A stretch of DNA of 64,000 bases, taken from NCBI GenBank assembly GCA_963924555.1, contig OZ004589.1:4960001-5024000 (forward strand), given 5' to 3'. The notes below the pieces were generated by a model. It was given only the letters and a program-made list of their open reading frames with translations, ran no database searches and had not been told where the DNA came from. The position numbers and the translations under genes are program-made. Positions 3,573-30,342 of this stretch are shown one piece after another; within the stretch, counting starts at the first letter, position 1; each line of letters begins with the position of its first letter. This DNA comes from Crambe crambe (Eukaryota; Porifera; Demospongiae; Poecilosclerida; Crambeidae).

Positions 3573-6506
3573 TTAGTAAGATATTATGTGGAGTGTGGGG
3601 ATTGAGAAATGCATAAAGGAGGACCTCAATGCAGCACAGAATCTCTTGAATCGCTTATTTCCTTTCTTCCTTTTCTTATCACCTGCAACTTCCTGCAATA
3701 CAGTACACACTAACATGCATGGTATGCCACTAATAAGCACAAAAACAAATAAAATGCAAATCATTAGGCTTCTCTTCAAGCTATTGATCTATAGCTAGTC
3801 CCATAATTATTAGTAGGTTTGTTACATAGATATCATAAAGTAGATCTAAATAAAGCCCAAGCTAAAAAAATTACTTGTGATGGCTACTGTTACATCAGTC
3901 TGATGTTGATTTACTGAGAGCTCCACATGCATGAATATATGGGCTTATGGCATGATGATTATCAGATAGGGTAGTGCTTGAATATCCTATAGCTAAATCC
4001 ACCCAATGACTATGATGCCTCTGCTACTAGCTACTTAGTGAGGTTTCTCTATACTCACATTATAGATTTGGATGGGACTTGAAGGCATAATTGGTTCACA
4101 AAAATGTGATTCAGCAGCCTGAGGGAGCTTAGTGATATCAGTGGCTGGTTCATTATTTGAAGAAGGGAAGATGTGAGTCTTGTTGATAGATGGTTCCTTG
4201 ATGAAAATGGGGGATGTGATTGGTATCTGTTGTGAGGTGGGATGGACCAAATTAATGTTTTTTGAATTGCTGGTACCAACTGGCAGGTGAATAGTGCTTC
4301 TCTCTCTTAAAATAGTCGAAGTCAGGACAGCTTTATTGAGCCAACTTGACCTCTTGTTTTGACTGCACTCCAGTGGTGTCCCAGAAAGAAAGGCTAAAAT
4401 GTGACCATCACAGGATGTCAAAATGCTTTGCATCAGGGGCAAGTCTTCTGAAAACAGCTCCTATGTGTGTGTGTATGTGTGTGTGTGTGTGTGTGTATGG
4501 GGGGGATATGATTTGATTAATGACTAAAAAGTAGTCTGAGTGATGTACATGTAGCTTAGCTGCCCTTAGCTACTGCTTACCTCTGCACTGAGAGGTCGAA
4601 ACACATTGGAAAGAATGTTGACTTGAGGTGATGGAAATTGTTGAGATTTTTGTGGCTCTTTCGAGAATAGGGTGCTTGGTGGAGTCAACTTGAGTGATTC
4701 CATGGGAAAGGAGCAATTTGAACAGAATGAAGAATAACCTGAACTACTGCAGCTGGTTCTACTTTTCAAACAGCAAATTTGTCGCTTTTTGTTGAGATCA
4801 GTGAGGCTGTTACTAGCTTTCATCGAAGCCACAGTATCGTCGTTCAAAGATTTATGTTGTAATATAGTGAAAGAATTCATATCTTTGGTGTCTGTGATTC
4901 TAGCTTTGTCAGGAGGTGAACACACAGCTGACATTCTTACACCTGTTGAATCTTTACCTGTAAAAAAATTAATAACTATTAGCTACATAGTAACCATGAG
5001 CTGATCTTGTTACGTAGGTGGATGGCATTATAATATTATTAATGTTATTTCTTACTTTCATGTGATGAAATTGTAGCATCTTCATCTTCATTTGAGGACA
5101 AAAAAGGTGCCTTCAATACTGATGTCAAATCATCAGGCAAGTTCCCTTCTTCATCATCACTTAGGGATGAGTAATAAGAGAGCTCTGATACACATGTCAA
5201 ACTACTCCATAGAGAGAGCTTTGATAAGGATGTCATACTGCTGCATAAAGAGAGCTCTGATACTGATGTCAAACTACATCCAAGGGAGAGCATTGATGCT
5301 GATGTCATTGATTGAGATAAGTCAGAAGGATCTTCATCATCACATGAAAAGAGCTCAGGCACAGATTTATAACTAGGGAGCTTCCATAGAGAGGTTGAAT
5401 TAGGAGGATCCTCCTCTTCATTAGAAGAGTGTTTTGATACAGAAATACTCTCTAGAGAGAGCTTTGTCGAATTGCTTGTGTTAAGAGAATACTCCTTCTT
5501 AGGGGATATATAAGAAAGGTCTGATATGGGTGTTAAACTACACCCCAAGCCGGAGACCTTTGATATTGATGTTGAACTACTCCCTAAACAAGAGAGCTTT
5601 GATAAGAATGTTGAATTACATACACTTTCCAGTATGAATCAGCAGGAACACAAACCTTGCTTTGGTCAATAGTTTTGGTCTTGTCAGTGTCCTGGACAGC
5701 ATTGACATCATGATCATGATGATAATCATGTCTATTATCTTCCATTGCCTGAATCAAAGAAATTGAGATTCACTACATGATGATCATGCTGTAAGACACA
5801 GAGTGGTGGTTGTAGCTATACAAATTGAATCTCTTATAAAGAAATCTTGGCCATACATTAAGAGTAAATAAAATTAACTAGCTATAATTATAGTGAGTGG
5901 CATTAATTTTTGTAGGGGCATAGCTACAGCTGTCTACTTGGCCCATACACATTTTTTTGGCCCCAAACACGCAAAATACGTAAGTTGTCTAGTTGTGTTT
6001 ACCTCATTGTCATTCAGCCACTTCATAATTTTGGTACTGTACTCGGAGTTCTATAATAAAGAAGTAGCTAGTATTACATAGCTGCTACAGATGAGGTTGG
6101 AAGTATGCAAGACAATTAACACAATAGCTAATAGCTATGCCCTATACGGCCGCTAATACCAGAGAATTTGCTTCTAATAGTGATTCCAATTTTTCAATAG
6201 TTGCATTTCCATCCAATAAACAACTCTCAAAGCTTTTGGGCAGAGAGGAGCATTGTGACTGAAACTGGAATCTTTTACCATCTTTAGATTGAAATTTCTC
6301 TTTGATCGCTTCAATAATCAAATGATGGATAAATTCTTTCTTACTATAATAGACCTATTAATAAGAATATAGACTGGCTGAATAGAAAGCTTAGCTACTT
6401 ATTTAGTTTTTACCATCGCAGCTTGAGCTTTGTGTCTGATTTTTCTGACAGTAGCTCTCCTAACCTCTCTCCCTTTGATGAATTCTGTAGCTTCTTTTGA
6501 TAACAT
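3573..6506 (-). CDS. Serine-rich cluster gene A (unrecognised family), with an apparent frameshift
   Basis: Seven exons with clean GT-AG borders: 6414-6506, 6160-6354, 6003-6050, 5056-5748, 4581-4957, 4059-4460 and 3573-3692. The ATG at 6506 was chosen because the frame is closed upstream. Exon 1 encodes a basic segment with FIKGREVRRATVRKIR. Exon 2 is acidic and amphipathic (LIIEAIKEKFQSKDGK). Exon 3 is a 16-residue piece ending KWLNDNE. Exon 4 carries repeated SL-S-SELSL units and runs of acidic residues. Exon 5 has SRTSCSSSGYSSFCSNCS. The last exon is polybasic (DKKRKKGNKRFKRFC), followed by MHFSIPTLHIISY. Compared with gene D, one base is missing near 5640 in exon 4, so the frame of exons 1-3 does not run into the SELS repeats. 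This may be a true break, a sequence error or an allele. I do not recognise the family. The exon lengths 195 and 48 match gene D exactly. Confidence 0.7.
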
Positions 6507-6718
6507 TTTCTCGAGATCTGATGAAACAGACAATGCTTATATCGATAGGAAAAGCAGTTTTTTTATGAAAGAAATGATGAAAGGATTATTGATGTAGTTA
6601 TACGCGACGCGTATAGCGCCTGCGCATGTGTATACTGCCTGTACTGTACGTGCGCGCGCATGTATGAGATGCAACATTCAAAAAATTGTCGATTCAAGCT
6701 ACGTAGCTACCAATCATC
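6507..6718. promoter_or_regulatory. Shared divergent promoter of genes A and B
   Basis: The starts of gene A (6506, minus) and gene B (6719, plus) lie head to head with only 212 bases between them. The gap is rich in CG dinucleotides, unlike its surroundings. It includes TGCGCATG at 6621-6628 just after GCGCC (on the other strand CATGCGCAGGCGC, one step from the NRF-1 consensus) and a TGCGCGCGCAT palindrome around 6651-6662. Divergent transcription from one core promoter is inferred from layout only. Confidence 0.5.
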
Positions 6719-8568
6719 ATGCCTTTTCTTCAAAAAGTTCTATCCCGAGATACTGTGGAATTTATTAAAGAGCGAGAGACTAGAAGGACTAGAGTTAGAG
6801 AAATTATGGCTGAGAGAGGCTTGCCAATGACTTTTGAGGTATTATGAGGTGTTGGAAGCAAGATTCGATTGGTCAGGCCCAAAATTGAAATGTAATCCCA
6901 CAGACCACTGAAGCTCTACAACTTGTTTTTGATTGATAGCTACTTAACCTTGTTTTTCCCAAAATATTGGTCAGGCCTAGCCTGGGCCTGACTGGCCTGA
7001 ACGTTCCACCGCCTATGTATAATAATATAGCCAGGCCAAAGGAATAGATGATGTGATCTATCTATAAAAGTTGCCTATTTTTTGTTTTATGTGATAGAGT
7101 CCTGGGTACACTGCTACCAAAATTGTTCAGTGGTACGAGGTAAGGATGATGGACACTATGATTAACTATGTTTATGTTTTATTTATTTTGTTTTTTACTT
7201 CAGGCTGTTCAAGATAATCAGAGTGATTCTGATGATTCTAATGTTTTGTATGACACGTCGTCAGGAAGAGCATGTAGTTTGACATCTGCACATGTATCAA
7301 ATGTCAGTCCCATGAATTTGGAGACAACCAAGTTTTCTTCTTTTCCTCTATCATGCATTGAAGAAGATACTGAGAATCCGCTGAAGTATAGTTTCAGTCT
7401 CCCTGAGCTCAGCGAAAAACAAGAAATCCCCCATTTGAAAAGTAGTGCCAGCTGCAGTTCTGGTCATTCTTCATCCCACTCAAATTGCACGGAGTTGACT
7501 CCTCCAAGCATTCACCTCTCAGCTGAGCAAAAGAAATTATATTCAAATCCATCATCTCAAAATAAGGAATATTTTCCATTACCTCAAGTCAGCCAACTGG
7601 GAGTCGACCTTTTCTCAGATCCAATACCAGAATTTTATAGAAGTGATTCAAGTGACTCCATGATGTCTTCACCCCACATTATCATACAGGTCAGTATAAT
7701 AATTATAGATACTCTATTTTCATTGGCCAGCTTATAAAAGGTTTATTTTTTAGAGTGGTTCAAATCTTATGTTTTGTGGACACATGATCACTGTAGTTTT
7801 CTATGTGAGAGAGCCATGCAGTCCCTCACATAGGTCTATGATTGAATTTTCTATAGTAGAGATGTACAATTTACAGGAAGCTGTTGTAACTTCATATTCT
7901 TGTGAGCCAGTGGCCTCAAACTCAGAGCATGCCAATCCTGCTCCTCTCTCTCTTGAAAACATACCTTTATCTGATAACTGTCCAGACCCGATACCTATTG
8001 TGGAGGAGATTAAAGTTTCACAGGCTGAACCACAAAACAATGTGAGTGGAATAGCTACTAGCCTCGGCCCCAGGCACTCTTTTGCAACCTGTCTAAAAGA
8101 GAGCCTGGTATCAGTTGTACGTGTTAGCCTCGGAATTCCAAGGCTTCTGTATATTCCTCGTACACTCTCCGTAAATGGACGTTTATTCATGAAAAAATAA
8201 TCTGAGCACCAAACAATAAAACCAGCCTAAAGACTGTCACAGTCTTGTTGAGCATAAGTACTGTAGTAGCAAATGGTATGGAAAAACTGGACAAAAAACA
8301 ATAAAGAAAAGGAGAAAGGAATCTTACTCAGTAAACTTTCAGGTTATTGCCTGTATACAGCCTGGGGACAAGGCTACTATATTATAGCTACCTGTTGGTA
8401 GCTACCCTAGGGTAACACCAATAAAATTATGCAAAAAGTAAAGATAATAATTTTCACCATTAATTATTATTATCACAGGAGGTTGTAGGAGATAAGAAGA
8501 AAGCAAAGAAGGGAAATCGATTCAAGAGATTCTGTTTTGCATCAAGAACCTACACCTGTTGCATATGA
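6719..8568 (+). CDS. Serine-rich cluster gene B (unrecognised family)
   Basis: Five exons: 6719-6838, 7098-7139, 7204-7689, 7877-8041 and 8479-8568, all with GT-AG borders and all in phase 0. The start gives MPFLQKVLSRDTVEFIKERE, followed by TRRTRVREIMAERG, clearly related to the N-termini of genes A and D. The 195-base second exon of A and D is absent. The short second exon (SPGYTATKIVQWYE) matches exon 3 of A and D. The third exon is acidic and serine-rich, has FSLPELSEKQ followed by SSASCSSGHSSSHSNC, and carries the family motif. The last exon is polybasic, DKKKAKKGNRFKRFC, and ends soon after at TYTCCI with no membrane segment. The product would be about 300 residues, mostly disordered. 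Function is unknown. Gene C looks like a decayed copy of this member, not of A or D. Confidence 0.65.
8059..8135. mobile_element. Short relic of a GC-rich inverted-repeat element
   Basis: A stretch beginning TAGCCTCGGCCCCAGG, containing GAGAGCCTGGTATC and ending TAGCCTCGG lies in the last intron of gene B. The same words occur in the termini of the element at 23161-23693. It is likely a shrunken non-autonomous copy of the same family. Confidence 0.4.
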
Positions 8569-9198
8569 TACTAGCTAGCTATCAATGATAAGTACTTATT
8601 TTCCCACTAACAGTTACTAGCTACTTTCTCCCTTAGCTTGCTTCATCATGCATTCATTAATTAACCTTACAGCTATTTAACAAGTCGTCGGTTAGTGACA
8701 GATTCTATAAACTTGGGTTTCCACGCGTGCATGTGGAATGAAGGGGTTGGTAGTAGTGCAGGGGCCACTCCCCCCACATGGCTCAGTGTGGAGACCTGCT
8801 AGGTCTATCCACAACACAACATATATGAATACAGCTAGGTGTGCAGCCCACATACATACAGCATAATACTAATAATTGCACACCCACATAAGCTAGCATC
8901 TATGTATACTTGCGGCACAGAAAGACATGACATGCACGTGCATATGATGTGATGTGACATGCGTATAGGGTTTTTTGCATGATGAATTCAGAACTGGTAA
9001 CCCAAACTGGTAGAGCCCAACTTCCATTGTCATCCAGTGTGATTTTATGTTCTTCCTTCTACAACAAGCCAGCTAATGTAGTAATAGGCAATGTTGCCAA
9101 GATCACGCAATACCCTGCAATAATTATCGCGATTGTAATTTTTGTCTCATTAGCGCTTTATTATCATTATGCATGTAACTGAAAAAGGTTTATCCCAA
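8569..9198. other. Spacer between gene B and relic C
   Basis: There is no supported gene. An open stretch at 8979-9182 ends in a hydrophobic run (IIIAIVIFVSLALYYHYAC), but it has no splice partners or relatives that I recognise. The region 8880-8970 is rich in CATGCA/TGCATG words. Confidence 0.4.
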
Positions 9199-10085
9199 GA
9201 ATTTATCAATCAGTGAGAGGCTAGAAGGGCAAAAAGTTAGTCTAAGAGAGGCTTGCCACAGTTGCCAGTAGCTTTTGAGGTGAATTTCTCTGTACGTATA
9301 GCTAAGACTTACGTAAAGCTTGCCTGCTTTGATGTGATGTGATTAATGTGCAAGTTTGTTGATCTTTTTTGTGCTACTACTGAAATTATTCCTTGGATGA
9401 GATATTAAATTTAGGCCTAGATAAACTATTAGCTAGGCTATTTTTGAAATCAAGATCTCCAGACTGAGGAAGGGAATCAGAGTGATCAAAGTGATTCTGA
9501 TGATTCTGATGACACATCTTTGGGAAGAGCTTATGGCTTGATATCCACACAATGCCATGCATCTAGTAAATGCTGGTGACACAGATTCGGATTTTTCATA
9601 TTTAACAGAATGAGGACCTTTCATCTCCTCAAGTCAACCAACAGGGAGATTATCTTCTCTCTGATGTGCCAAGCAAACTAGAATATGAATCAAATTATTC
9701 GTCCTACATTATTGTACAGGTACGTAAGTGAAGAGGTACATATAATAATTATTATGTAGAGAGATACAACTCACACAGGAAGCTGTACACTAGTGAGATC
9801 AAGCTTCAGTCCTGCTCACCTCTCTCCTGAATTTCTGACGCTTGTCCTGATCGAATACCTGCTGACCTGTGGAGAAGTTTGAAGTTTCACAGGCTGAACC
9901 TGTGAGTTGAATTATGATCATAATGTAGCTAAAATAGTTAGCCACTATAATCTTGTGAGGACACATACTATTAATATAGACTATTATCACAGGAGGTTGT
10001 AGGAGATATGAAGAAGAACTTGAGAAAAGGAGAAGTCGATTCAAGAGATTCTGTTTTGCATTGAGAGTCTATACTGCTTATACTA
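9199..10085 (+). pseudogene. Serine-rich cluster relic C, decayed copy of gene B
   Basis: Four blocks follow the exon order of gene B. About 9199-9281 matches the GREARRA-type N-terminal exon but has an in-frame stop early on. About 9453-9719 matches the large acidic serine exon, keeping the DSDDSDD-coding stretch and an ACAG|GTACGT donor, but its SLPDL/SGYSS part is gone. About 9780-9903 matches the fourth exon. 9993-10085 matches the polybasic last exon (GAGGTTGTAGGAGAT start, FKRFCF-coding end), now with frame damage. No open frame joins the blocks and no start codon is in place. The likeness to B in intron positions shows a duplication of the whole gene followed by decay. Confidence 0.75.
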
Positions 10086-10986
10086 ACTAGTTAACCAACT
10101 GTCCTTCATTAATTGTTATTAATTTTGTTTATTATTATTATTTTTGGTAGTAATGTGACTATTATAGCTACGTAACAGCATGTGTAGGCAAAGTTCACAG
10201 ACCAGGATAAAGGGTGAATGATGACAAAAGTGTGTAATTTTAAAAATAAATGATCATCTGGATGAATGTAGTTAGAGCCAAACTAAGATGCTTGATGCTT
10301 ATGTGTAATAATTAATTTTGGGTACCATCTTTGCAACTTAATTCAGGAGGTTATTGCTTGTATGACCATTACTTTGATTCTGTGGAATATCTTTCTGTTA
10401 GCTATTATTATACAGAGGCTCTATAATGTTGATGTGAGGGGAAAATTATGGAGATTGATGGGAAATTGATATACATTACAGTGATGCTATTAATTTTGTA
10501 GGGTAACTGAAGGGTAATGTCATGAGCTTTTTTGTGGGCAGGAGTGTGGAGCAAGGGTCAATATTTTTATTCCTCTTGGTGATGAAACGTTTGAGTAGGT
10601 TTATCAGTGAATGCTGATGGTTTTCTTCACGTTGATGTTCTTCATACACTGGCCTCTACTCTAGTCTTGACAGCTCAAGTAAAATAGCTATGTGGTGAAG
10701 AATGACAATTTCCTGACGTTAAATCCACATAAATGTGAGATCATCGTGTTGACAAAGCTATGCATGTGTCTCGTGAAGTCACCTGCCATAATGAGGGAAA
10801 GTGCTGAGTGCTGGTGGTCTGGGGGGTCTTTGTGCTTCTCGTGTGATCTCGTGCATGCTCCTCGCTGGGCTTTGAACTTTGATACCCATGGTAACGAATT
10901 CTAATCATAATTATGCGCGCGCATTTGGCTGACGCGACGCGCATAACCGCAATATTAATTTTGTCTCATAGAAAACTTCTTTTGCC
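10086..10986. other. Spacer upstream of gene D
   Basis: No gene is seen. Near 10501-10525 there is GGGTAACTGAAGGGTAA, which recalls the termini of the TTAA-flanked element at 18933-19513. Next to gene D the sequence becomes CG-rich, with an ATGCGCGCGCAT palindrome around 10912-10923 and GACGCGACGCGCAT just after it. This is the probable core promoter region of gene D. Confidence 0.45.
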
Positions 10987-13371
10987 ATGTCTGTTTCATC
11001 CAACCTCGAGAAAATTTTATCAAAACAAACTATAGAATTTATCAAAGGACGAGAGGCTAGAAGGGCTACAGTCAGAAAAATTCGAAGCAAAGCACAAGCT
11101 GCAATTGTAAAGCTAACCTATATTAGCTACTCATTCTTTATTAATGTTAACACCTCTATTTTTAGGTCAATAAGAAAGAATTAGTTCAAGAGTTGATCAT
11201 TGAAGCAATCAATAAGAAGTTTCAATCCGAAGATGGAGAAATCCAATTTCAGCAGTCTCTTTCACAATATTTCTCACTGCCTAACAGCTTTGAGAACTGT
11301 TTATTGGATGGGAATGTAACTACTGAAAAAATGAAATCAATTTTAGAAGAAAATTCTCAGGTACTAGCAGCTAGCCAGCTAGTTTAATTATAGGGTGTTA
11401 TATTTGCTGTTTGATTCCAATAGGTTCTTTACCTACATTACGTATACGTAAATATAGATACATAATGCTAGCTAACTATTATTTTACTCTGATTTCATTT
11501 CTTTTATAGAATCCTGAATATGCCATCAAAATTATGCAGTGGTTGAATAACTATAAGGTAAAAACTGACTCTTATAATATTATTTGGGCAGGGCTGCATG
11601 CATGATTGATGTGTAGTTAAGACTTCCCAGTAGATATAGCTACATGTAACTATCATTAGAGGACAAAATGTATGCATCATGTGACTATTTTTAATACAGG
11701 ATCCTCGAGCTCATGCTGTGTCTGATACAGACAAGACTGAAAGTAATAACCAAAGCAATGTTAATGATGTTCCTGCTCACTTGTCTGTGGAAAATGCATG
11801 TAATTCGACATCAATGGTCTATGGTTTGAAGAATAGTTTGACATCCATATCTGACCAATCCCCTAAAGAGGAGACTCCTACTGACTTATATCTAGGGGGC
11901 AATTCAACATCTCTATCAGAGCTCCCTCTTGGGAGTAGTTTTAATTCTGTACTCGAGCTTTCTTTTCTATTCCCAAGTGATGATAACTATGAAGATCCTG
12001 CTAGTGTATCTCCAACAAGAAGCAATTTGACATCAGCATCAATACTGTCCATGGGGAGCAGTTTGACATCCATATCAGAGCTCTCTCACCTACCACCTAA
12101 GGAAGAAAATCCCGCTGATCTATTCCCAGGGAGCAATTCAACATCTCTATCAGAGCTCCCTCTTGGGAGTCGTTTTAATTCTGTACTTGAGCTCTCTTTT
12201 CTATTCCCAAGTGATGAAGATCCTGCTAGTGTATCTCCAACAAGAAGCAATTTGATATCAGCATCAATACTCTCCCTGGGGAGCAGTTTGACATCCATAT
12301 CAGAGCTCTCTCACCTACCACCTAAGGAAGAAAATCCTGCTGATTCATGCCCAGGGAGCAATTCTGTACCTGAGCTCTCTTTTCTCCCAAGTAATGATAA
12401 CTATGAAGATCCTGCTGACTTATTATCTCCAAGGAGCAATTTGACATCAGCATCAATACTCTCCTTGGGGAGCAGTTTGACATCTGTATCAGAGTTCTAT
12501 TTCTGGAACAGTTCAACATCTTTATCAGAGCTCTCTTATTGCTCATTCCAAAAAGAGGAGAAGCTTGCCAACTCACTTCCAGGGAGCGATTTTGTATCGG
12601 TATTGAATCTCTCTTTTTCACCTTCATGGGATGGTCAAACTACAATTTCTCAGCAACCATCATCACATGAAAGTAAGAATTATTAAGAATTAAAATCCTG
12701 CACTTATATATACGTATACCTTAGCTGCATCTCATCAGCTAGTTCATTAAAATCAGCTCTTATAATTCAATGATTCACAATAATTAATATGCAGTTAGAG
12801 GATCATTGGGTGATGTCAGAATGCCAGTCATGTATTCCCCTCCTGATGAAGATCAAATCATGCTGAATGAGTACACCAAAGAGGAAAAAGATACGAATCT
12901 GGCTCAGATGAAGGTTACTAGTTCCAGCCTCCCTGACCTAAGTGAAAAACAACTTCTTCATTTGGAAAGTAGTGCCAGTTGCCGCAGTTCAGGCTATTCT
13001 TCATTACACTCCTTTCCCATGGAATCACTCAAGTCGACTCCACCAAGCACCCACAAATCATCTTCCTCGGAGGCACAATGTCATATCGACCCTTCAGTGG
13101 AGCCTTCTAATGATGAATTGATTTCACTGGCTGACCCCCGAAATGAAGAAAATCACATCCCAATTATTACTGTGAGTATAATATTCTACATACATGTATA
13201 GCTACGGAAGCTATGTAGGGGTTGTCTTCAAAGCCAAGCTTGAAACATCTTTTTTTACTGCTCACTCAGGATGCTGTAGGAGACGAAAAGAAACGGAAAA
13301 AGAAAAGAAATCGACTCAAGAGATTCTGTGCAGCATTGAAGTCCGTCTTTCGTGGATGCATTTTTCGATAA
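10987..13371 (+). CDS. Serine-rich cluster gene D (unrecognised family, best preserved member)
   Basis: Six exons: 10987-11106, 11166-11360, 11510-11557, 11700-12672, 12795-13171 and 13270-13371. All phases join cleanly to about 604 residues. The N-terminus (EFIKGREARRATVRKIR) is basic and helical-looking. The second exon has ELIIEAINKKFQSEDGE and the third PEYAIKIMQWLNNYK. The 973-base fourth exon is built from serine-rich repeats of the type SLTSISELSHLPPKEENPAD, including two nearly identical units about 232 bases apart. Exon 5 has SSSLPDLSEKQ then SSASCRSSGYSSLHS. The last exon is DEKKRKKKRNRLKRFCAALK and stops at FRGCIFR. A strong hydrophobic segment follows directly but in another frame. 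Gene A matches across a five-base difference there, so this member probably lost its tail by a recent insertion. The function is unknown; the protein looks disordered with a basic tail. Confidence 0.75.
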
Positions 13372-13672
13372 TTACTCTGATTCTAATTATACTGACATTA
13401 ATTATTATCATTTTTGTTCTTGCTAAACAAACTGCTTTTTCAATTAGCTATATAATAATATTCCCTTTTCTTATTAACATGAAGTGCTAACACAAATTTG
13501 AGTAGCATTGATGTATGACGGCACTACTATCAATGGAGACCATATAATTTGTTTGTTTAGCTACATGTATAATATCCTATGTAGCTACTAGCAAACTCGA
13601 TAACCTTGATAATGAATGACATTATACATAGAGTAGCTCGCTATACTTGCTATGAGGTGATAATGACCATAG

Positions 13673-15387
13673 TTAAGTTTCAGGTTTTCCACAAGTAAAG
13701 AATTTCATGAAATATGAAAGGCTCTTTGCTCTCCTTTTCTTTCTTTTGTCTTTGATTCCCTCCTTCTCTCTCTCCTTCCATTCAACAAACAAACAAAAAT
13801 AACAAAGTAACAACTCACAACAATCAGCTACGTAGATAGTGTTGGCTATTATGTATACCTTCTGTCTTCTTTCACTTCTCAATTTTTCTATAATTTTCTT
13901 CTCCTCTTCCCCACACTGAAAAGAATAACAAGAAGATTATTAGCTATCTATAGTAAAAACTCTTCAGCAATAGAAATATGGATGCCTGATAGCTACAGTA
14001 CCTATAATAGGAAAAGTCAACAAAATTAGCTAACAAACAAACCAAAACTCACATCAGATTGTGTTTTGAGGTCACTAGTTCTCCTTCTTCTTTCTTTCAT
14101 CTTTTCACTTCTTTCTATCATTGTCTCCACATGGTTAACCTCCCGAACCTTAAAAACCATTTGAACCATTCCAAAATAATTAATGATCATTGAGATTGTG
14201 GATCACTTACTCCATCACTTGAATCAATCCCTGCACTCTTTATTGGGGGATCTTTGCATACTTGAAGTGTTGCCTCTTCATTTTGCAGTGAGGATGTTTT
14301 CTCCTTCTTTTTTAAAGGTAGGGGTCTTGGATGAGTAGGATTTCCGAATTTTTTCTTTGGAATGAAGATCACGGAAGAGCTTTCAGAACTTCTGGCAGGG
14401 CTCATAGAGTCTCTGAGTTTAGGACTTCCAAGATCTGGCATACTTATACTAGAACCACATTTGATGACACGATTATCAGGTCTTCTTTGATTCCTGACGT
14501 CCACATCTGTACTAGAGATTTCAGCAAGCATGATTGATTCTGATTTCACGATATTAAAACCTTGGGAGTTTTCTTTCGTTAGCCAAGAAGTTGCAGTACT
14601 GCTCTCTTCCTCCAACCCCAAAGTATTATTAAACTCAGGACTTTCATCAAGGTCAATGTCCTGTTGCTTTTTAGGGAGAAGATTCATAGATACCACTTTA
14701 GAGTCTGTTATATCTTTGGGGACTCCATCTGTATGTTTCTTGGAATTTCTAATTCTGGAATTTTCAGAATTTGTACTGTCAACTACTAGAATTTCTTCTG
14801 GTTTTTGTTTTCCAGATACTAAGTGTTTGTGACCTTTCTCTTTTTCATTTTGTGTCAATGGATCAAAGCATTGATTCTCATTTAAGGAATCCTCATGACT
14901 GAGGACATTCGATATCTCTGGTGCAAAGAAAGAAAAATTATTAGAATGATGAATTCCTTGCATGTAGCTAGCTAGCTTCATACTAAGCACCTTTATTATG
15001 ATTCATATGAAATTCTATAGAAAGGGGAGAACATACTCTACTAGAGAGCGCTTTGGGCAAAGGACCTGTCCCCGTTGAATCAGAAGTGATTGTATCCTCA
15101 TCACTAAACTCTGATCCACTCTGTGAAGCAGCAGAGTCCTTAAGGAAGAAATCTCTTGTATTGCCTCTCAATACCTAATTTTATAAAACCAGAGTCACTT
15201 TATAAGAAAACATGGCATTATAGCTATAGCTAACTATGGCGGCCAGAATATATATTACCTTCTTAGAACCCAGAGATTCGGCAACATGTTCCAAGCCTCT
15301 ATCGATGAGGATTTTTCTGACCCTTGCTCTTCGAATTTCTCTTTCCTTTCTAAATGTTGCAAGTTGTTGAGGTGAAGGTATCATCAT
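13673..15387 (-). CDS. Serine-rich cluster gene E (unrecognised family)
   Basis: Six exons: 15259-15387 (ATG at 15387), 14991-15174, 14211-14917, 14053-14148, 13859-13915 and 13673-13774. Phases join to about 424 residues. The start has FRKEREIRRARVRKILIDRG, the same basic N-terminal theme as A, B and D. Exon 3 is 707 bases and carries CGSSISMPDLGSPKLRD, a version of the SLPDL motif, followed by ARSSESSSV. Exons 4 and 5 encode a charged, probably coiled-coil stretch (ETMIERSEKMKERRRR; KKIIEKLRSERRQK). The last exon is polybasic (KDKRKKRRAKS), followed by FMKFFTCGKPET. The 3' acceptor of exon 6 (GGAAG|GAG) is weak and could shift by a few bases. No enzyme fold or membrane span is visible, and the function is unknown. 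Confidence 0.7.
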
Positions 15388-15613
15388 AAGATTAGCTACT
15401 ACTCATCTTGATCGCAGGATCAAGATTTTCAAAAATAAGTTTCTCTAGCTAGCTAGCGTTGAAAATGATTATTACGCGCGATATGACGTACGCATGCGCT
15501 GAATTTTTGAAAGAATAATAATACACAGATACAGGTAGCTAGCTAACAGTTATTATTATAGTTATTGTTATAAGTTAAGTTTTGATAATGGGCATAGCCC
15601 ATATGGCTGCTTT

Positions 15614-17706
15614 TCAGTGAGATCTGGAATGGCCCACTCCACATGTGAGGAACTTCCATAAAGAAGACAGCTTTTTCTTGAATGCTTGCCTTTTCTTCTT
15701 TCTCCCCTTTCTCTTCTCCTTTATCTCCTCTTCTTCATGGACACTCATGACCTCCTGGTAGAGTTAAAAGACAGTCTGATGAAATACAGCTTATTAAGTA
15801 GCTAGTTAGCATGGAACTCACATCATGAGTATCAGCAACTTCAGTTGAGTTATTGGCCAATAAAGCAATCTCCACAGTGTCATCTTTCTGCAACCAATAA
15901 AAGTTACCTTTGAAATTTAAAATAACATAGAAAATGAATGTGTACTAACCTCTGTGCAGTTATTTGGACTTTGATTGGGTCCTGAGCTACCCCCATTTTC
16001 GATCTCATTACTCAGAAGTGTAATGGTGGCACACTTGTTGGAAGAAACTCTGGCCCGGCCTTCCTCAATTAGAAACTTTAGCAGTTCTTTCTCAGAGCAG
16101 TTGGAATGGAAAGAAGAGTAGCCTGAACTAGTAAAGCTGGCAGAAATTTTCAGCTTGGGATTCAATTTTCTTCTGAGATCAGGAAGGCTGATGGAACTGC
16201 CTTTGATCAATTGAGACTTAGATTTCCCAAATGAATTGTTCTTTGAGGAGTAAGCTTCAGTTATAAACTCATCAATTGGAGATGGTGAATCTTCTATCAA
16301 AGTGCCTGATTCCACAGCCAAAGGGTCTGAATCTGCATCTGAACTTGAGATCAAAGCATTTGAATTTGCGTTACTCAAAGCATCTGAATTGGAGTTAACT
16401 GAATCTGTGGGTAAAGGACTTGAATCTGCAACTGGAGGATCTGAATCTTCACTCAAAACCTTCTCATCAGGATGTTCAGAAGTTGGAGGCAGTGTGTGTG
16501 ATGTATCCAGCTTAGTAAGATGCTGCCACTCATTAGCAAAGAGTTCACCTCTGATAGCAAGAATCTTAGCTTCACCAGGAAAGATTTTATCAGCACATGC
16601 AGGAGGTAAGTCATCTATTTGCATTTCTATGGATGCACATTCAGAAGATTTTGTACCTGAAACAAACACAATAATTTCATAGCAATATTATAGCTGGTGA
16701 CAAGTACGTAAGGAGCAATAGCTATACATACATACGTCATACGTAGCTAGCAACAAAGACTCTTACTTTCACTTGATCGAAGAGAATCGATTGAACAATC
16801 AACAACTGTAGAACTGGTGGCATTTCCAGAATAACAGGGTGACAAAGATTCAGAAACAGTTGTGGAACAGAGCTCGGATTCAGTAGAAGAGGAAGTTGAA
16901 CTTGAATTGATGTTTAATTCAGCCTCACTGCCTCGCTTGGTAACCAAAGAAACTGTGCTTGAGATGCTGCTACCAGAGTCAGACTTGCTATCATTGCTCT
17001 GAATGTTGATAATAATCACAATGATATTATTGGCTATTAACTGCAATGGAACCTCTAAATAATGGATACGCTGACTTGGGACCTGGCAGCCTTTTGTCCG
17101 TTGCAAGCTAATCTTCTGAGGTCAAAGTGTAAGATAGTGGCTGCTTTGAGTGTCCTTTATTGGAGGTTCCACTGTAAATCTTATTCAAATTACCGTATAT
17201 TTTTTCTGAAACCAACAGCCATGAGAACTTAGTTGAGGATTCTGTGGGTTAATAAATAAATAAATAAAATAAATAAAAACAAACAAACAAACAAACAAAC
17301 AAACAAACAAACAAAAAAACAACAACTAGCAAGCCTATGACAATTTGAATAACTCTAATAGGTATACCTTATTAGTCTTCCATGTGGGTTCCAGTCTTAT
17401 ATCACTGCTGTAATTCTTTGGAGCATGTCGTTGACTTCCACTCTCAGTTGAAGTCTCTTCATCTGGACACTCTCCATCATTAGACTTCTTCATCTTCTGG
17501 AGTATTTCGAAGATCCGATCTTTTTTCTTCAAGTAGTCTTCTCGGCTATAGTCGAACTATAAAACATAGCTATAGTTTATTAAACTGCCTATACAAGCAC
17601 ATCAGAACCACAATACCTTAACAGATGTTGCGTCCAGTTCTCCGCTTCCAGTGCGGATTTCTTGAACGCTATTATTTTCGCTTTCCTTAATATCTGAAGC
17701 CAGCAT
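15614..17706 (-). CDS. Serine-rich cluster gene F (unrecognised family)
   Basis: Six exons: 17617-17706 (ATG at 17706), 17368-17556, 16767-16998, 15950-16656, 15822-15887 and 15614-15754. Phases join to about 474 residues. The N-terminus differs from its neighbours (MLASDIKESENNS), but exon 2 has a charged helix-like piece (YLKKKDRIFEILQKMKKSN). Exon 3 is almost all Ser/Thr and ends in phase 1 at AGTGAAA|GTAAG, the same junction as in A and D. Exon 4 is 707 bases, the same length as exon 3 of gene E, and has runs of S/D/N/A, then GSSISLPDLRRK and FTSSGYSSFHSNCSEKE, the clearest family motif. The last exon is polybasic (EKRKGRKKKRQAFKKK), followed by SLWKFLTCG. E and F end alike (F-TCG), so they form one subgroup. 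Function is not known. Confidence 0.7.
17253..17324. repeat. AAAT/AAAC microsatellite
   Basis: This is a run of AAAT units followed by AAAC units. It sits in the second intron of serine-rich gene F. Confidence 0.9.
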
Positions 17707-18084
17707 TTTTAGTTAGCTTTGATCGATGATAACAACAAAGGTAATGCGTACGTATCCTTAAAACAAAGATTACTTTGATCGACTATGTACTGACAAAGCG
17801 TATAACGCGGTAATGCGCGCGCATAATGTAGTTTTCGTTACCATAGCTATTATAGCGCGCGCGTTGACCATGTGGAAGCACTCCTGTCCTAATAATGAAT
17901 TTAATCTGCCACCTCCTGACCTGAAGTATTTTTTTTTGTATGGTAGTCATACTTTAGACATGAAGTACCGCCAAATAGACAAGAGCTTGACAAAAATGTT
18001 GCAGGTGTGTAGCTAGCTCTGTAAAAGAAGCTAAAATGAAACTTGTAATATTTTGCCAATGAGATGACCAGTAAACAATTATGT
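17707..18084. other. Spacer between gene F and the DNAI4 3' end, with CG-rich start region
   Basis: This holds the upstream region of gene F, including TGCGCGCGCA around 17815-17824 and GCGCGCGC around 17855-17862. It also holds the 3' flank of DNAI4. No further gene is seen. Confidence 0.5.
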
Positions 18085-21000
18085 TCAGTTTTGTTCTCCT
18101 TTTGTCATTGAACTCACAGCTGCCATCAAAGCTCCTTCCTATATATAGCAATATAAATGATATTAGCTATAGGTAACATTATAACTGCATGGGAAATCAA
18201 GTGATTGTTTTCTGGGTATGATGAAGTGATTCTATACTGAGTGGATGCTGAATATGCATGTGGGATACAGTTACCAGATTATCAGGGTGAGCCTAGATAA
18301 ATTCATGATAAAATTGCATGTTATAGGTAGCTACATGATGGAGTAATTTGCATGGCCTGTATTATACCTGATTTGCAGGTGAAGGAGGTATATTATTCAA
18401 TAAATACACAGAAACTTCACCATCAGTGTCCCCTACAAGCACCACCTAGAGAAATGCCAAGCATGACTATTATGGAATTTAGTTGGCAGTTTGTTCTTGA
18501 TCATCAAACTTTTAACCTAACCTCCTAATTATATTTCTGCCTATGGGCTTTTTCATAATAGCTCACCTTACTATTTTGTGCAAATCTTATGCAGGTCTGA
18601 GTAGCACTAGACAGAGGTCTATGTACAATCATAGGATCCAAACTATATGCACATTGATAAAAATCAAAAATGGAACATGATTTTTTTTTTTTGATACCTG
18701 TTCAGTTCAAGATCCCAGATTTCAACACGTCCCTCACTGACACAGCCAAATATAGTAGAGCTGAATGGTGACCAGCACACATCGTTGATACATTTCTGAA
18801 AGATTATAATTATCTCTGAGGCCATTGAATAGAACTAGTAATTTTTATTGGGGGACATTGACATCATTGATAATGGATACAAGCAGCTCAAGGTCTTGAG
18901 GATGTGGGTAACGGGTGAGGGAAAACACTTGCTTAAAGGGTAACTGGAGTGGAAAAGTATATCAACTGCAGTAGAAGTTGGCCATTTCATTCGTATTCTG
19001 TTTGGGGCGGGGCTTACTTGTGATGTAATAATAGGTACCAAAGTTTGTACAAACAAAATTCTAGGGTGTATGTTAATGGTTATAACAAAATTTAAAGTCC
19101 ATGCCTCTGATATCCAAAGAATTACTTCACTGCATACAAGATGATGCCAGCTCACACATGCTCCAGTAAGCCATCTGAGAATTCTAACCCCCTACCTACA
19201 GCACGATAAGCTGGCCATTAGCTCTGAAAGCATTTTGAAACTTCTAAATTTGGTATAATTTTTAGCTTACTCTAAGATTAACTTGTGCAAACTTTGCACT
19301 GAACCATGTATGAAATACAGGGACCAACTTTTGTAAAATTTTCAATGAGGTCGTATAATGAGTTCCTTCAATGACATCACAAGTGAGCCCCACCCAAACA
19401 GGATGTAACTGTTACGTATTTTCTCAGTGAGACTTGAACTAATGCTTCTCATATTTTCTTCCCAGTAATGTAGGCATACCAAAATGATTTTTTTCATTTC
19501 AGTTACCCTTTAAAGTTGAAAAGTCCCCAGATTTCCTTCCTGGGTATTAAACAAACCTGGGCAACAGAAAATGATTGAAGAGGTGTGGTTTTATCTTGAC
19601 TCCAAAGCTTAACAGTCCAGTCTGCACTACAACTCAGGAAGTAATCAGTCACAAACGGAGACCATGAAACACGATAAACTGGACCCTGCATGATGACATC
19701 TATAATCTAACAGGCCCAAACAACTCAAAATGGAGAAATTTACAGTATGTCCAGTGTAAGTTTCAAGTACTTGTTCATTATATGAGCAAGAGCACTTGTG
19801 AATGAATCCTTCCTCTGAGCAGGCTAAATAGCTGTGCAACGAGAAAAGGAATGAGATTTGAATCAGACTGAACAGGTAGCATTCTTTCAAGGAAGAATAT
19901 ATAATTAAGAATATGAAATCTAATGCTTTTAGCTACCCACAGAACAGTCATAAGTAGACATGGGATAGTCTTTTTCTTACTTACTCCACCCCCAAGGAGA
20001 ATCTTCCTCTATTTAACTGCCACACTGCTTGGTTCAAAGGACTTACAGTACTGTCATATTCATTCATGATTGCTGCTTACATATTGGGGTCTTTTGGCCA
20101 GAAATCAAAACCCATTCCTGGAGCATGCTGTGATATATAAGCCTCTCCACCTCCCCCTCCAGTACCAGCTGTTTTTGCAGCAACCTGCTTGGCTGCAGCA
20201 CGATGATTTGCTGGTTTAGTAGATTTCTTCTTCATCTGAGCGTGAGGTTTGACTGTTGTCATCCGCTTCAAGTTCATGAGTTGAGAACTCTCAAAACCTT
20301 TATGGATTGACCACTGAAGGATGTGTCCATCAATTGATATAGAGATCAATTGTTCAGATTTGCTTTCTCCCCCTAATGAGTGCTCTTTGGTGACCCAGCT
20401 AATTTGCCAGACGGGCCCAGTGTGCTTATGGAGAGCATCACTATAATTAAACCATTAATAACATTAGGTTATTTGTACTGCAGTTATAACATTATGTGTG
20501 CACAGGATTTATATCTAACATACCTGCTATCCAGGACTGATTCTTGTGAAGGAGAACGAGCATTATAGAGAGAAATAGTACCATTAAACAGACCGGCCTG
20601 AAGAGGAAATACAGTGAATTACATCATGTGAATCTATGTAAACTTACAGCAAGCAGATTCGGGTGATTATGAGAAAAACTAAGAGATGTTATCCCTGATG
20701 GAGCATGAAAGACCCTCTCTGGAAACTGTTTAAATAGAAGTAATGACTACCAGCCAGTATTCATGATATAATGTCATACCTCAGGGTTCTTTAAAGACCA
20801 ACAGCAGATCAATCCTATAGTGTCCTCTTCAGCTATGAAAGCACCATAACCAACAGCGACAATATCCTACAATGGCCAATATTATAATTAGCCTACTGTA
20901 ACATTCTGTACATAAGCTAACTAGGGTGCAATGTTTCATTTTCAGTAGATCAAATTAGGGGTACTGGGTATATATGGATTTTCTAATATCACACACACAA

Positions 21001-28783: not shown

Positions 28784-29905
28784 CTAATCACTGCTGAAAG
28801 TATATCTCTCAAACATTGCATACTTCCTCATTCTTTGTTCCACTTCTTTTCTTAGTCTCAGTGGCCACACTACCAACTCTCTGGTACGAGATACAGACTT
28901 GAAAATCTTTCCTGCACACAACTCTAAGTATTCTTCTGAACAATCCAAGTCCAGAAACTTACAGATGCCAGAAATAGTCACCACTGGGTCACTCACTAGA
29001 TCACAATTATGAACTTCCAATACAGGATTATCCTTAAATATCTTCAATTGTCCCATAATAGCATCGAGTATATGAAATATTCTTTCTATCATTTCCTCAA
29101 GCCTTGCAGAGTCGTTGAATTTCCATGAAGGAGCTTTTTCGTTGATTTTAGATTCTCTAAGCCTTGGTATGTTTGTTTTGTTAAAAGCATACAAAACATG
29201 AGTGGAAATGAGGTCAAATGGATTTCGTACTGCATGAATCAGAGAAATAGGAACGGTCAGTTTCCTCTTCAGTCTCTCATACTTTAAGACAAAATTTGGT
29301 CTGTTTCGCAAGAATTCCTTAGTTGTTGAACCGCCACTTTTATCACCAATAATTTGCAAATACTTATCATATCTTCCTTGCCACAAACCATCAATTTTCA
29401 AAGTATACCCTTTCTGGTTTGAATTCCGTATAGCCATAGCATCTTTATAGCTCTTCTTGTAGAGCATATTGAATAAATTAGTAGTCCAGTTCAGTGATTT
29501 GGCAGCTGTATCAAAACTTCTCCAGTGCCTGAAGATGTGGAATTCATGAGAAATAATGACATGAGGATGGGCATCTATTATACTACCTAAGATGCTATGC
29601 CCAGTTTTCCCGTAACCAACGAAGAACACAAACTTTTTTATGCCTTTCACAACTTGAAGGCTCAGTGGTTGGAAAGTACTATACTTGTGCTTTAGTTCTG
29701 GAGTTTCTTGAGGGTGTCTAAGAATAGTGTCCTCCAAGTGGCTTTGCAGATCAGTATAGGGAGGTTGTTCATGAGGGTGGTGCACAGTATTTTCGTGATG
29801 GGAGCTTCTTTCAGTGATAAGTGAAGAAATGTATTTTCTGTAAGTGAAGAGTACAACAGTTAAAAATGCAATAACAAGGATGGCGACTGGAAGCGCCCTT
29901 CTCAT
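28784..29905 (-). CDS. Type II membrane sulfotransferase (Golgi-type), intronless
   Basis: A single open frame of 373 residues starts at ATG 29905. A short cytoplasmic MRRA is followed by a membrane anchor (LPVAILVIAFLTVVLFTY) and a histidine/proline-rich stem. The catalytic domain has FFVGYGKTGHSILGSIID, the 5'-phosphosulfate-binding loop for PAPS, then the conserved HPHVIISHEFH, and later LIHAVRNPFDLISTHVL, the 3'-phosphate-binding region with its Arg and Ser/Thr. This layout is that of Golgi carbohydrate or tyrosylprotein sulfotransferases, which move sulfate from PAPS to glycans or proteins in the secretory path. The acceptor cannot be told from sequence. Being intronless amid intron-rich neighbours suggests an origin by retroposition, or a family that is often intronless. 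Sponges have abundant sulfated polysaccharides, which fits. Confidence 0.85.
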   Translation of the reverse strand: MRRALPVAILVIAFLTVVLFTYRKYISSLITERSSHHENTVHHPHEQPPYTDLQSHLEDTILRHPQETPELKHKYSTFQPLSLQVVKGIKKFVFFVGYGKTGHSILGSIIDAHPHVIISHEFHIFRHWRSFDTAAKSLNWTTNLFNMLYKKSYKDAMAIRNSNQKGYTLKIDGLWQGRYDKYLQIIGDKSGGSTTKEFLRNRPNFVLKYERLKRKLTVPISLIHAVRNPFDLISTHVLYAFNKTNIPRLRESKINEKAPSWKFNDSARLEEMIERIFHILDAIMGQLKIFKDNPVLEVHNCDLVSDPVVTISGICKFLDLDCSEEYLELCAGKIFKSVSRTRELVVWPLRLRKEVEQRMRKYAMFERYTFSSD

Positions 29906-30342
29906 GATGATGAATGGAGTACAGGAGCTCTGTATAGCCGAGTGGCGTAGCAGTGGCTAGTAGCAAGTAGCACTCAGCGTATAAATTAAATTAAAGGCTG
30001 TAGCTAGCTAGATAGTTTCTTCCTGCATGTCGACCCTTTCCCTTTTCTTAGGTAGCCATGACTAATGTGGTTTTACAACTGTGGTTTGGCACGAGATCAA
30101 CACTTCCTTTTTTGATAGAGATCAACCACAAAGCAGGGAAAGAGTGCCTTGATAGGGTAAAATTCGATTGAAAGCAAGTACCTATATAGAGGAAGCTTGT
30201 TGTTGTAGTCATGTGATCACAGCTTGGAATCAAAGATACAGGGGCATGACATCATGGTTTGATTAAGTACTTAACTATTTCTAGAAACAACTGGTAAGTT
30301 ATGACACAACAGTTTCTGGCTAGCTATATGTAACAAAGACTA
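29906..30342. other. Spacer between sulfotransferase and collagen genes
   Basis: This contains the upstream region of the sulfotransferase gene and the 3' flank of the collagen gene. No exon is seen. Confidence 0.5.

Follow-up and report, generated by a model that had tools for sequence, protein, structure and literature searches.

A duplicated serine-rich protein family in the sponge Crambe crambe with patchy coding constraint and a conserved SSGYSS motif

Among the closest described systems are the beta-TrCP substrates with SSG-type degrons, DEPTOR, PER2 and RASSF3. In the available text of the respective sources, the degron of DEPTOR is SSGYFS (PMC5237168), that of PER2 is SSGYGS (PMC11223080), and SSGYSS is the site closest to the beta-TrCP consensus in RASSF3, which was recovered by ligase trapping (PMC4474599). 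The same part of the latter source reports that beta-TrCP knock-down did not stabilise RASSF3 and that a cullin inhibitor did so in part or not at all. Here, we describe a gene family of Crambe crambe, many of whose products contain the same SSGYxS core inside a serine-rich stretch, as SSGYSS, the very site listed for RASSF3 in that text. Unlike these three proteins, members of the family have no DEP, PDZ, PAS or RA match, and no SARAH match, in a Pfam scan of ten exon frames and four spliced proteins or parts. Moreover, the canonical beta-TrCP degron starts with D, whereas the motif of the family starts with S.

The window, meaning the whole 64,000-nucleotide stretch of DNA analysed, is C12:4,960,001-5,024,000 of a 143-Mb assembly, which was searched. 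An earlier, sequence-only reading had placed a group of related genes, A to F, within positions 3573-17706, and spliced models bear this out. The features, in window coordinates, are as follows.

3573..6533, minus strand: gene A, D-type; exons 6533-6414, 6354-6160, 6050-6003, 5748-5056, 4957-4581
4460-4059 and about 3692-3573, minus strand: further exons of gene A (the first a possible exon, the second the basic last exon)
5176-5308: repeats in A related to the serine-rich repeats of D
4728..4745, minus strand: SSGYSS in A
6719..8568, plus strand: gene B, B-type, intact, 5 exons, 300 aa; 6719-6838, 7098-7139, 7204-7689, 7877-8041, 8479-8568
7456..7473, plus strand: SSGHSS in B
9187..10080, plus strand: relic C, B-type; stop in first exon, decayed basic tail
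10987..13371, plus strand: gene D, D-type, intact, 6 exons, 604 aa; 10987-11106, 11166-11360, 11510-11557, 11700-12672, 12795-13171, 13270-13371
11850..12536, plus strand: serine-rich imperfect direct repeats in D exon 4, four overlapping families of 66 to 151 bases
12986..13003, plus strand: SSGYSS in D
13673..15387, minus strand: gene E, E-type, intact, 6 exons, 408 aa; 15387-15259, 15174-15037, 14915-14211, 14148-14053, 13915-13859, 13774-13673
15614..17706, minus strand: gene F, F-type, intact, 6 exons, 474 aa; 17706-17617, 17556-17368, 16998-16767, 16656-15950, 15887-15822, 15754-15614
16112..16129, minus strand: SSGYSS in F

Genes B, D, E and F are intact spliced frames, and all 19 of their introns (59-437 bases) are of the GT-AG type. 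As noted earlier from sequence, A and D have exons of 195 and 48 bases in common; their first exons, of 120 bases, are also equal in length. A basic N-terminal segment is indeed present in A, B, D and E, in the form RE-RR--VR-I, and a basic C-terminal exon is found in A, B, D, E and F, with a decayed remnant in C. Other parts of the earlier description need revision. The architecture was said to be fixed, which is too strong because SGYSS is missing from E and the RE-RR--VR-I segment from F; the 195-base exon, for its part, was seen only in A and D. The SLPDL...SGYSS motif, said to run through the whole family, is present in A, B (as SSGHSS), D and F. E carries SMPDL, but an SSGYSS-type motif was sought there and is absent though the gene is intact; in C, the SLPDL-SGYSS portion was looked for and not found. 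Nor is function of every copy supported. C is a relic, as proposed, with stops. Gene A has TTG at the position of D's ATG start and a one-base deletion near 5632 that shifts the frame of exon 4, and is therefore probably a recent pseudogene.

The view that the family is unnamed holds up. No Pfam family scored over its cut-off in the ten exon frames, the four spliced proteins or parts, or the C-terminal tails, and nothing relevant to the family was found among the literature matches listed. A PDB search with the tail gave no match, and one with the N-terminus gave weak matches to LOV domains (best E 0.35; E 0.018 with a five-sequence profile). We take this NPH1/LOV2 match, which spans 27 profile positions, to be due to chance. 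AlphaFold modelled D exon 2 with A exon 2 as four helices, at a confidence too weak (mean pLDDT 61.6, pTM 0.35) for the model to be used in a fold search. Elsewhere in the window, a protein kinase exon lies at 22-453 on the minus strand (Pkinase, E 1.2e-27) and a sulfotransferase-like open frame of 390 aa at 28784-29956, also on the minus strand (Sulfotransfer_3, E 6.8e-08). A WD40-like frame at 19503-19706 on the same strand scores below threshold (18.9 versus 27 bits) and may belong to a longer gene immediately past F.

The cluster was described as having six members. The family is larger, since another 12 or so loci are located at C12:4.378-4.447 Mb, roughly 520 kb from the window on the same chromosome. 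These were found with D DNA and five protein queries (D N-terminus, D C-terminus, F residues 94-474, E and B2). The same four types are represented in this second cluster, by at least four B-type, four D-type (two of them fragments), two E-type and two F-type loci, which brings the family to at least about 18 loci, window included, besides extra fragments such as B-type tails. None of the five protein queries gave a match outside both clusters better than E 2.15. The D DNA query also found small matches on C16 and C6; that on C16 is a fragment of the D serine repeats (94.7% over 57 bases, at 4225-4357 of the C16 extract) with no recognised gene. Window positions 9606-17868 are collinear, in order and orientation, with C12:4,432,882-4,437,422, and an inverted copy of the block lies at about 4,415,700-4,420,800. 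The B, D, E and F types were thus copied together as one block, which was then inverted. A transposon origin of the copies was considered and rejected, since the copies have introns in common and form two clusters on one chromosome. Full frames in the second cluster are those of B2l and B2r (294 aa, identical to each other), F2 (447 aa; exon 3-4 boundaries shifted) and D2r (302 aa; one donor is weak and the N-terminus shorter). D2l has lost the donor used by D2r, and the left F copy is frameshifted. It could be that the identical inverted copies are partly an assembly artefact. A near-perfect palindrome of 2.1 kb (96.5%) is seen at C12:4413531-4415657, and its halves recur near C12:4430948-4432066, where the inverted arms end. 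This palindrome may have driven the inverted duplication.

Within these proteins, the SLPDL-SSGYSS module stands out. The pattern (D/S/T)SGxxS occurs in A, B, D and F and in ten places of the distal cluster, while, when each of the nine modelled proteins is shuffled 2000 times, SSG.SS arises in just 5 to 61 of the shuffles. The module was aligned for 11 copies, with E and two SSGYSS-bearing D-type fragments left out, giving 29 six-codon windows with enough data. SSGYSS is the lowest of the 29 (pN 0.014, pS 0.468, pN/pS 0.03), the windows overlapping it are next (0.16-0.24), and a second minimum, of 0.23, falls on SLPDL, with the caveats that the copies are related, so that pairwise sums count shared events repeatedly, and that the motif was noticed before being tested. 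Inner support in the module tree is weak. Only one replacement is seen within SSGYSS, Y to H in B, whereas five of the six codons vary silently; none of the 11 copies has a replacement in SSG or in the later serines. SSGYSS fits the beta-TrCP phosphodegron pattern, although phosphorylation does not follow from conservation. The genome also encodes a beta-TrCP D-domain exon, on C15 (PF12125, 72.3 bits versus a cut-off of 25; this concerns the D-domain part only). A TPPS stretch that follows SGYSS in the A, B and D types presumably resembles Fbw7 sites.

Our tentative interpretation, possible rather than probable, is that these are disordered, short-lived adaptors that combine a conserved N-terminus with a beta-TrCP-type degron and with a basic tail at the membrane or at nucleic acid. 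The N-terminal segment would bind a partner, and kinases would phosphorylate the serine cluster around SSG(Y/H)SS. The phosphorylated motif may then be bound by beta-TrCP and the protein destroyed, such that its level would follow the signal. The basic, cysteine-bearing tail may anchor the protein at a membrane or nucleic acid, and the fast-changing serine-rich linkers may serve as spacers between functional parts. Several observations count against the degron: intact E lacks the motif, the first residue is S instead of the canonical D, and RASSF3, with SSGYSS, was trapped yet, in the available text of PMC4474599, not stabilised by beta-TrCP knock-down.

As for the tail, the last 40 residues contain 10-16 K+R and 1-4 Cys in nine models. 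This polybasic, cysteine-bearing C-terminus behind a long serine-rich region recalls, we assume, disordered membrane proteins with basic, acylated tails. The likeness is incomplete: acylation and membrane binding are hypothetical for the family, and an amphipathic tail helix is inconsistent across members. In an 18-residue window D (10 of 1000 shuffles) and A (30) are the only members with a clear helix of this kind; it is marginal in D2r (52) and not seen in F (100), E (289), B2 (426) or B (836); in an 11-residue window no member falls below 85 of 1000 shuffles. The last exon of the A, B and D types has a ratio of 0.56. Around NRLKRFC (RFKRFC/RLKRFC codons) of this exon, silent sites are nearly invariant too, so conservation there need not be at the level of protein; gene conversion or a DNA-level signal is perhaps responsible. 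It is also conceivable, if unlikely, that these are basic nuclear proteins, in which the K/R tail and the RE-RR--VR-I helix would be used for import into the nucleus and for contact with nucleic acid, with a regulatory role for the serine-rich part. Tails such as KKRKKKRNRLKRF, which we take to resemble nuclear signals, and the weak helical prediction for D exon 2 speak for this; yet no DNA- or RNA-binding Pfam family exceeded its cut-off in the scanned pieces, and the tail cysteines are left unaccounted for.

Conservation of the motif could alternatively reflect its tyrosine. YSSF and YSSL conform to YxxPhi, a sorting or SH2-binding pattern, and 10 of the 11 aligned copies have YSS(F/L), in what would then be a membrane-held adaptor, to which a basic cysteine tail would be suited. 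We regard this as quite improbable. B has lost both Y and the following F/L but keeps SSG.SS, for which reason we favour a degron over a tyrosine sorting signal, and the absence of any replacement at SSG and the later serines in the 11 copies points the same way.

A further question is whether the array is simply decaying, that is, whether most copies of formerly functional genes have lost their role and are drifting. Several distal copies are broken, as are A and C, and whole-gene dN/dS is high. By NG86 with a codon bootstrap, it is 0.61 (0.41-0.88) for F/F2, with F2 exon 1 left out; 0.67 (0.49-0.95) for D/D2r, in which the first 40 aligned codons are doubtful; and 0.69 (0.50-0.95) for B/B2r. 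Estimates without intervals reach 0.84 for F/F2 and 0.83 for B/B2r by YN00, which yields no value for D/D2r, and are 0.69, 0.71 and 0.79 by maximum likelihood for the three pairs (F2 without exons 1 and 6 in both methods). For D/D2l the values are 0.63 to 0.73, and for the distal pair D2r/D2l 0.89-1.57, likewise without intervals. Against decay, full frames persist in 8 of about 18 loci, the NG86 intervals exclude 1 in all three pairs, and indel length is divisible by three in 31 of 33 cases in exons, compared with 11 of 30 in introns. By pair, the in-frame counts for exons versus introns are 16/16 versus 8/16 (F/F2), 4/4 versus 1/3 (B/B2r, exons 1-2), 5/7 versus 1/7 (D/D2r, exon 4 in part) and 6/6 versus 1/4 (D2r/D2l), among copies chosen for keeping frame, with A and the left frameshifted F copy left out. 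General decay is thus a poor candidate, and selection on the family, as first suggested, is borne out by the frame-keeping indels and dN/dS below 1.

This constraint is patchy, given that whole-gene ratios are high and that of the first three exons of A/D is 0.23 (0.12-0.39; 118 codons): the N-terminus and short motifs are under strong constraint, the serine-rich linkers under weak constraint. Within exon 1 (A, B, D, B2, E), windows over FIKGREARRATVRKI have pN/pS of 0.13-0.33, compared with 0.53 for the whole exon. These results support an undescribed family with coding constraint.

Finally, a distant relationship of the F type to vertebrate RDD1 (C1orf115; treated in PMC7006212, of which part was available) is highly improbable and no more than a weak lead: the acidic-then-basic layout of F-type tails is similar, and PF15828 matches the C-terminal 68 aa of F (E 0.0024, 18.5 bits) and F2 (E 0.0092, 16.6 bits) and none of ten shuffles, but both scores are under the cut-off of 27, the F stretch was picked after a weak whole-protein match (E 0.07), five of ten shuffles match some other family (best E 0.022), and the tails of B, B2, D, D2r and E have no PF15828 match, which confines the likeness to the F type.

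Taken as a whole, we interpret the family as mostly disordered regulatory proteins multiplied by tandem and segmental duplication. More speculatively, it could be a lineage-restricted, copy-number-expanded family in which a beta-TrCP-type switch evolved apart from the vertebrate substrates, between an N-terminal effector segment and a basic membrane tail, producing paralogous degradable signalling adaptors outside named families; we consider this doubtful at present. Lineage-restricted disordered proteins are common but seldom linked to a mechanism that can be tested. In the present family, the pattern of sequence change draws attention to short motifs, and the strongest one agrees with an established ubiquitin-ligase signal. 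If the interpretation is true, a beta-TrCP switch would have been wired to an orphan family in a possibly early-branching animal.
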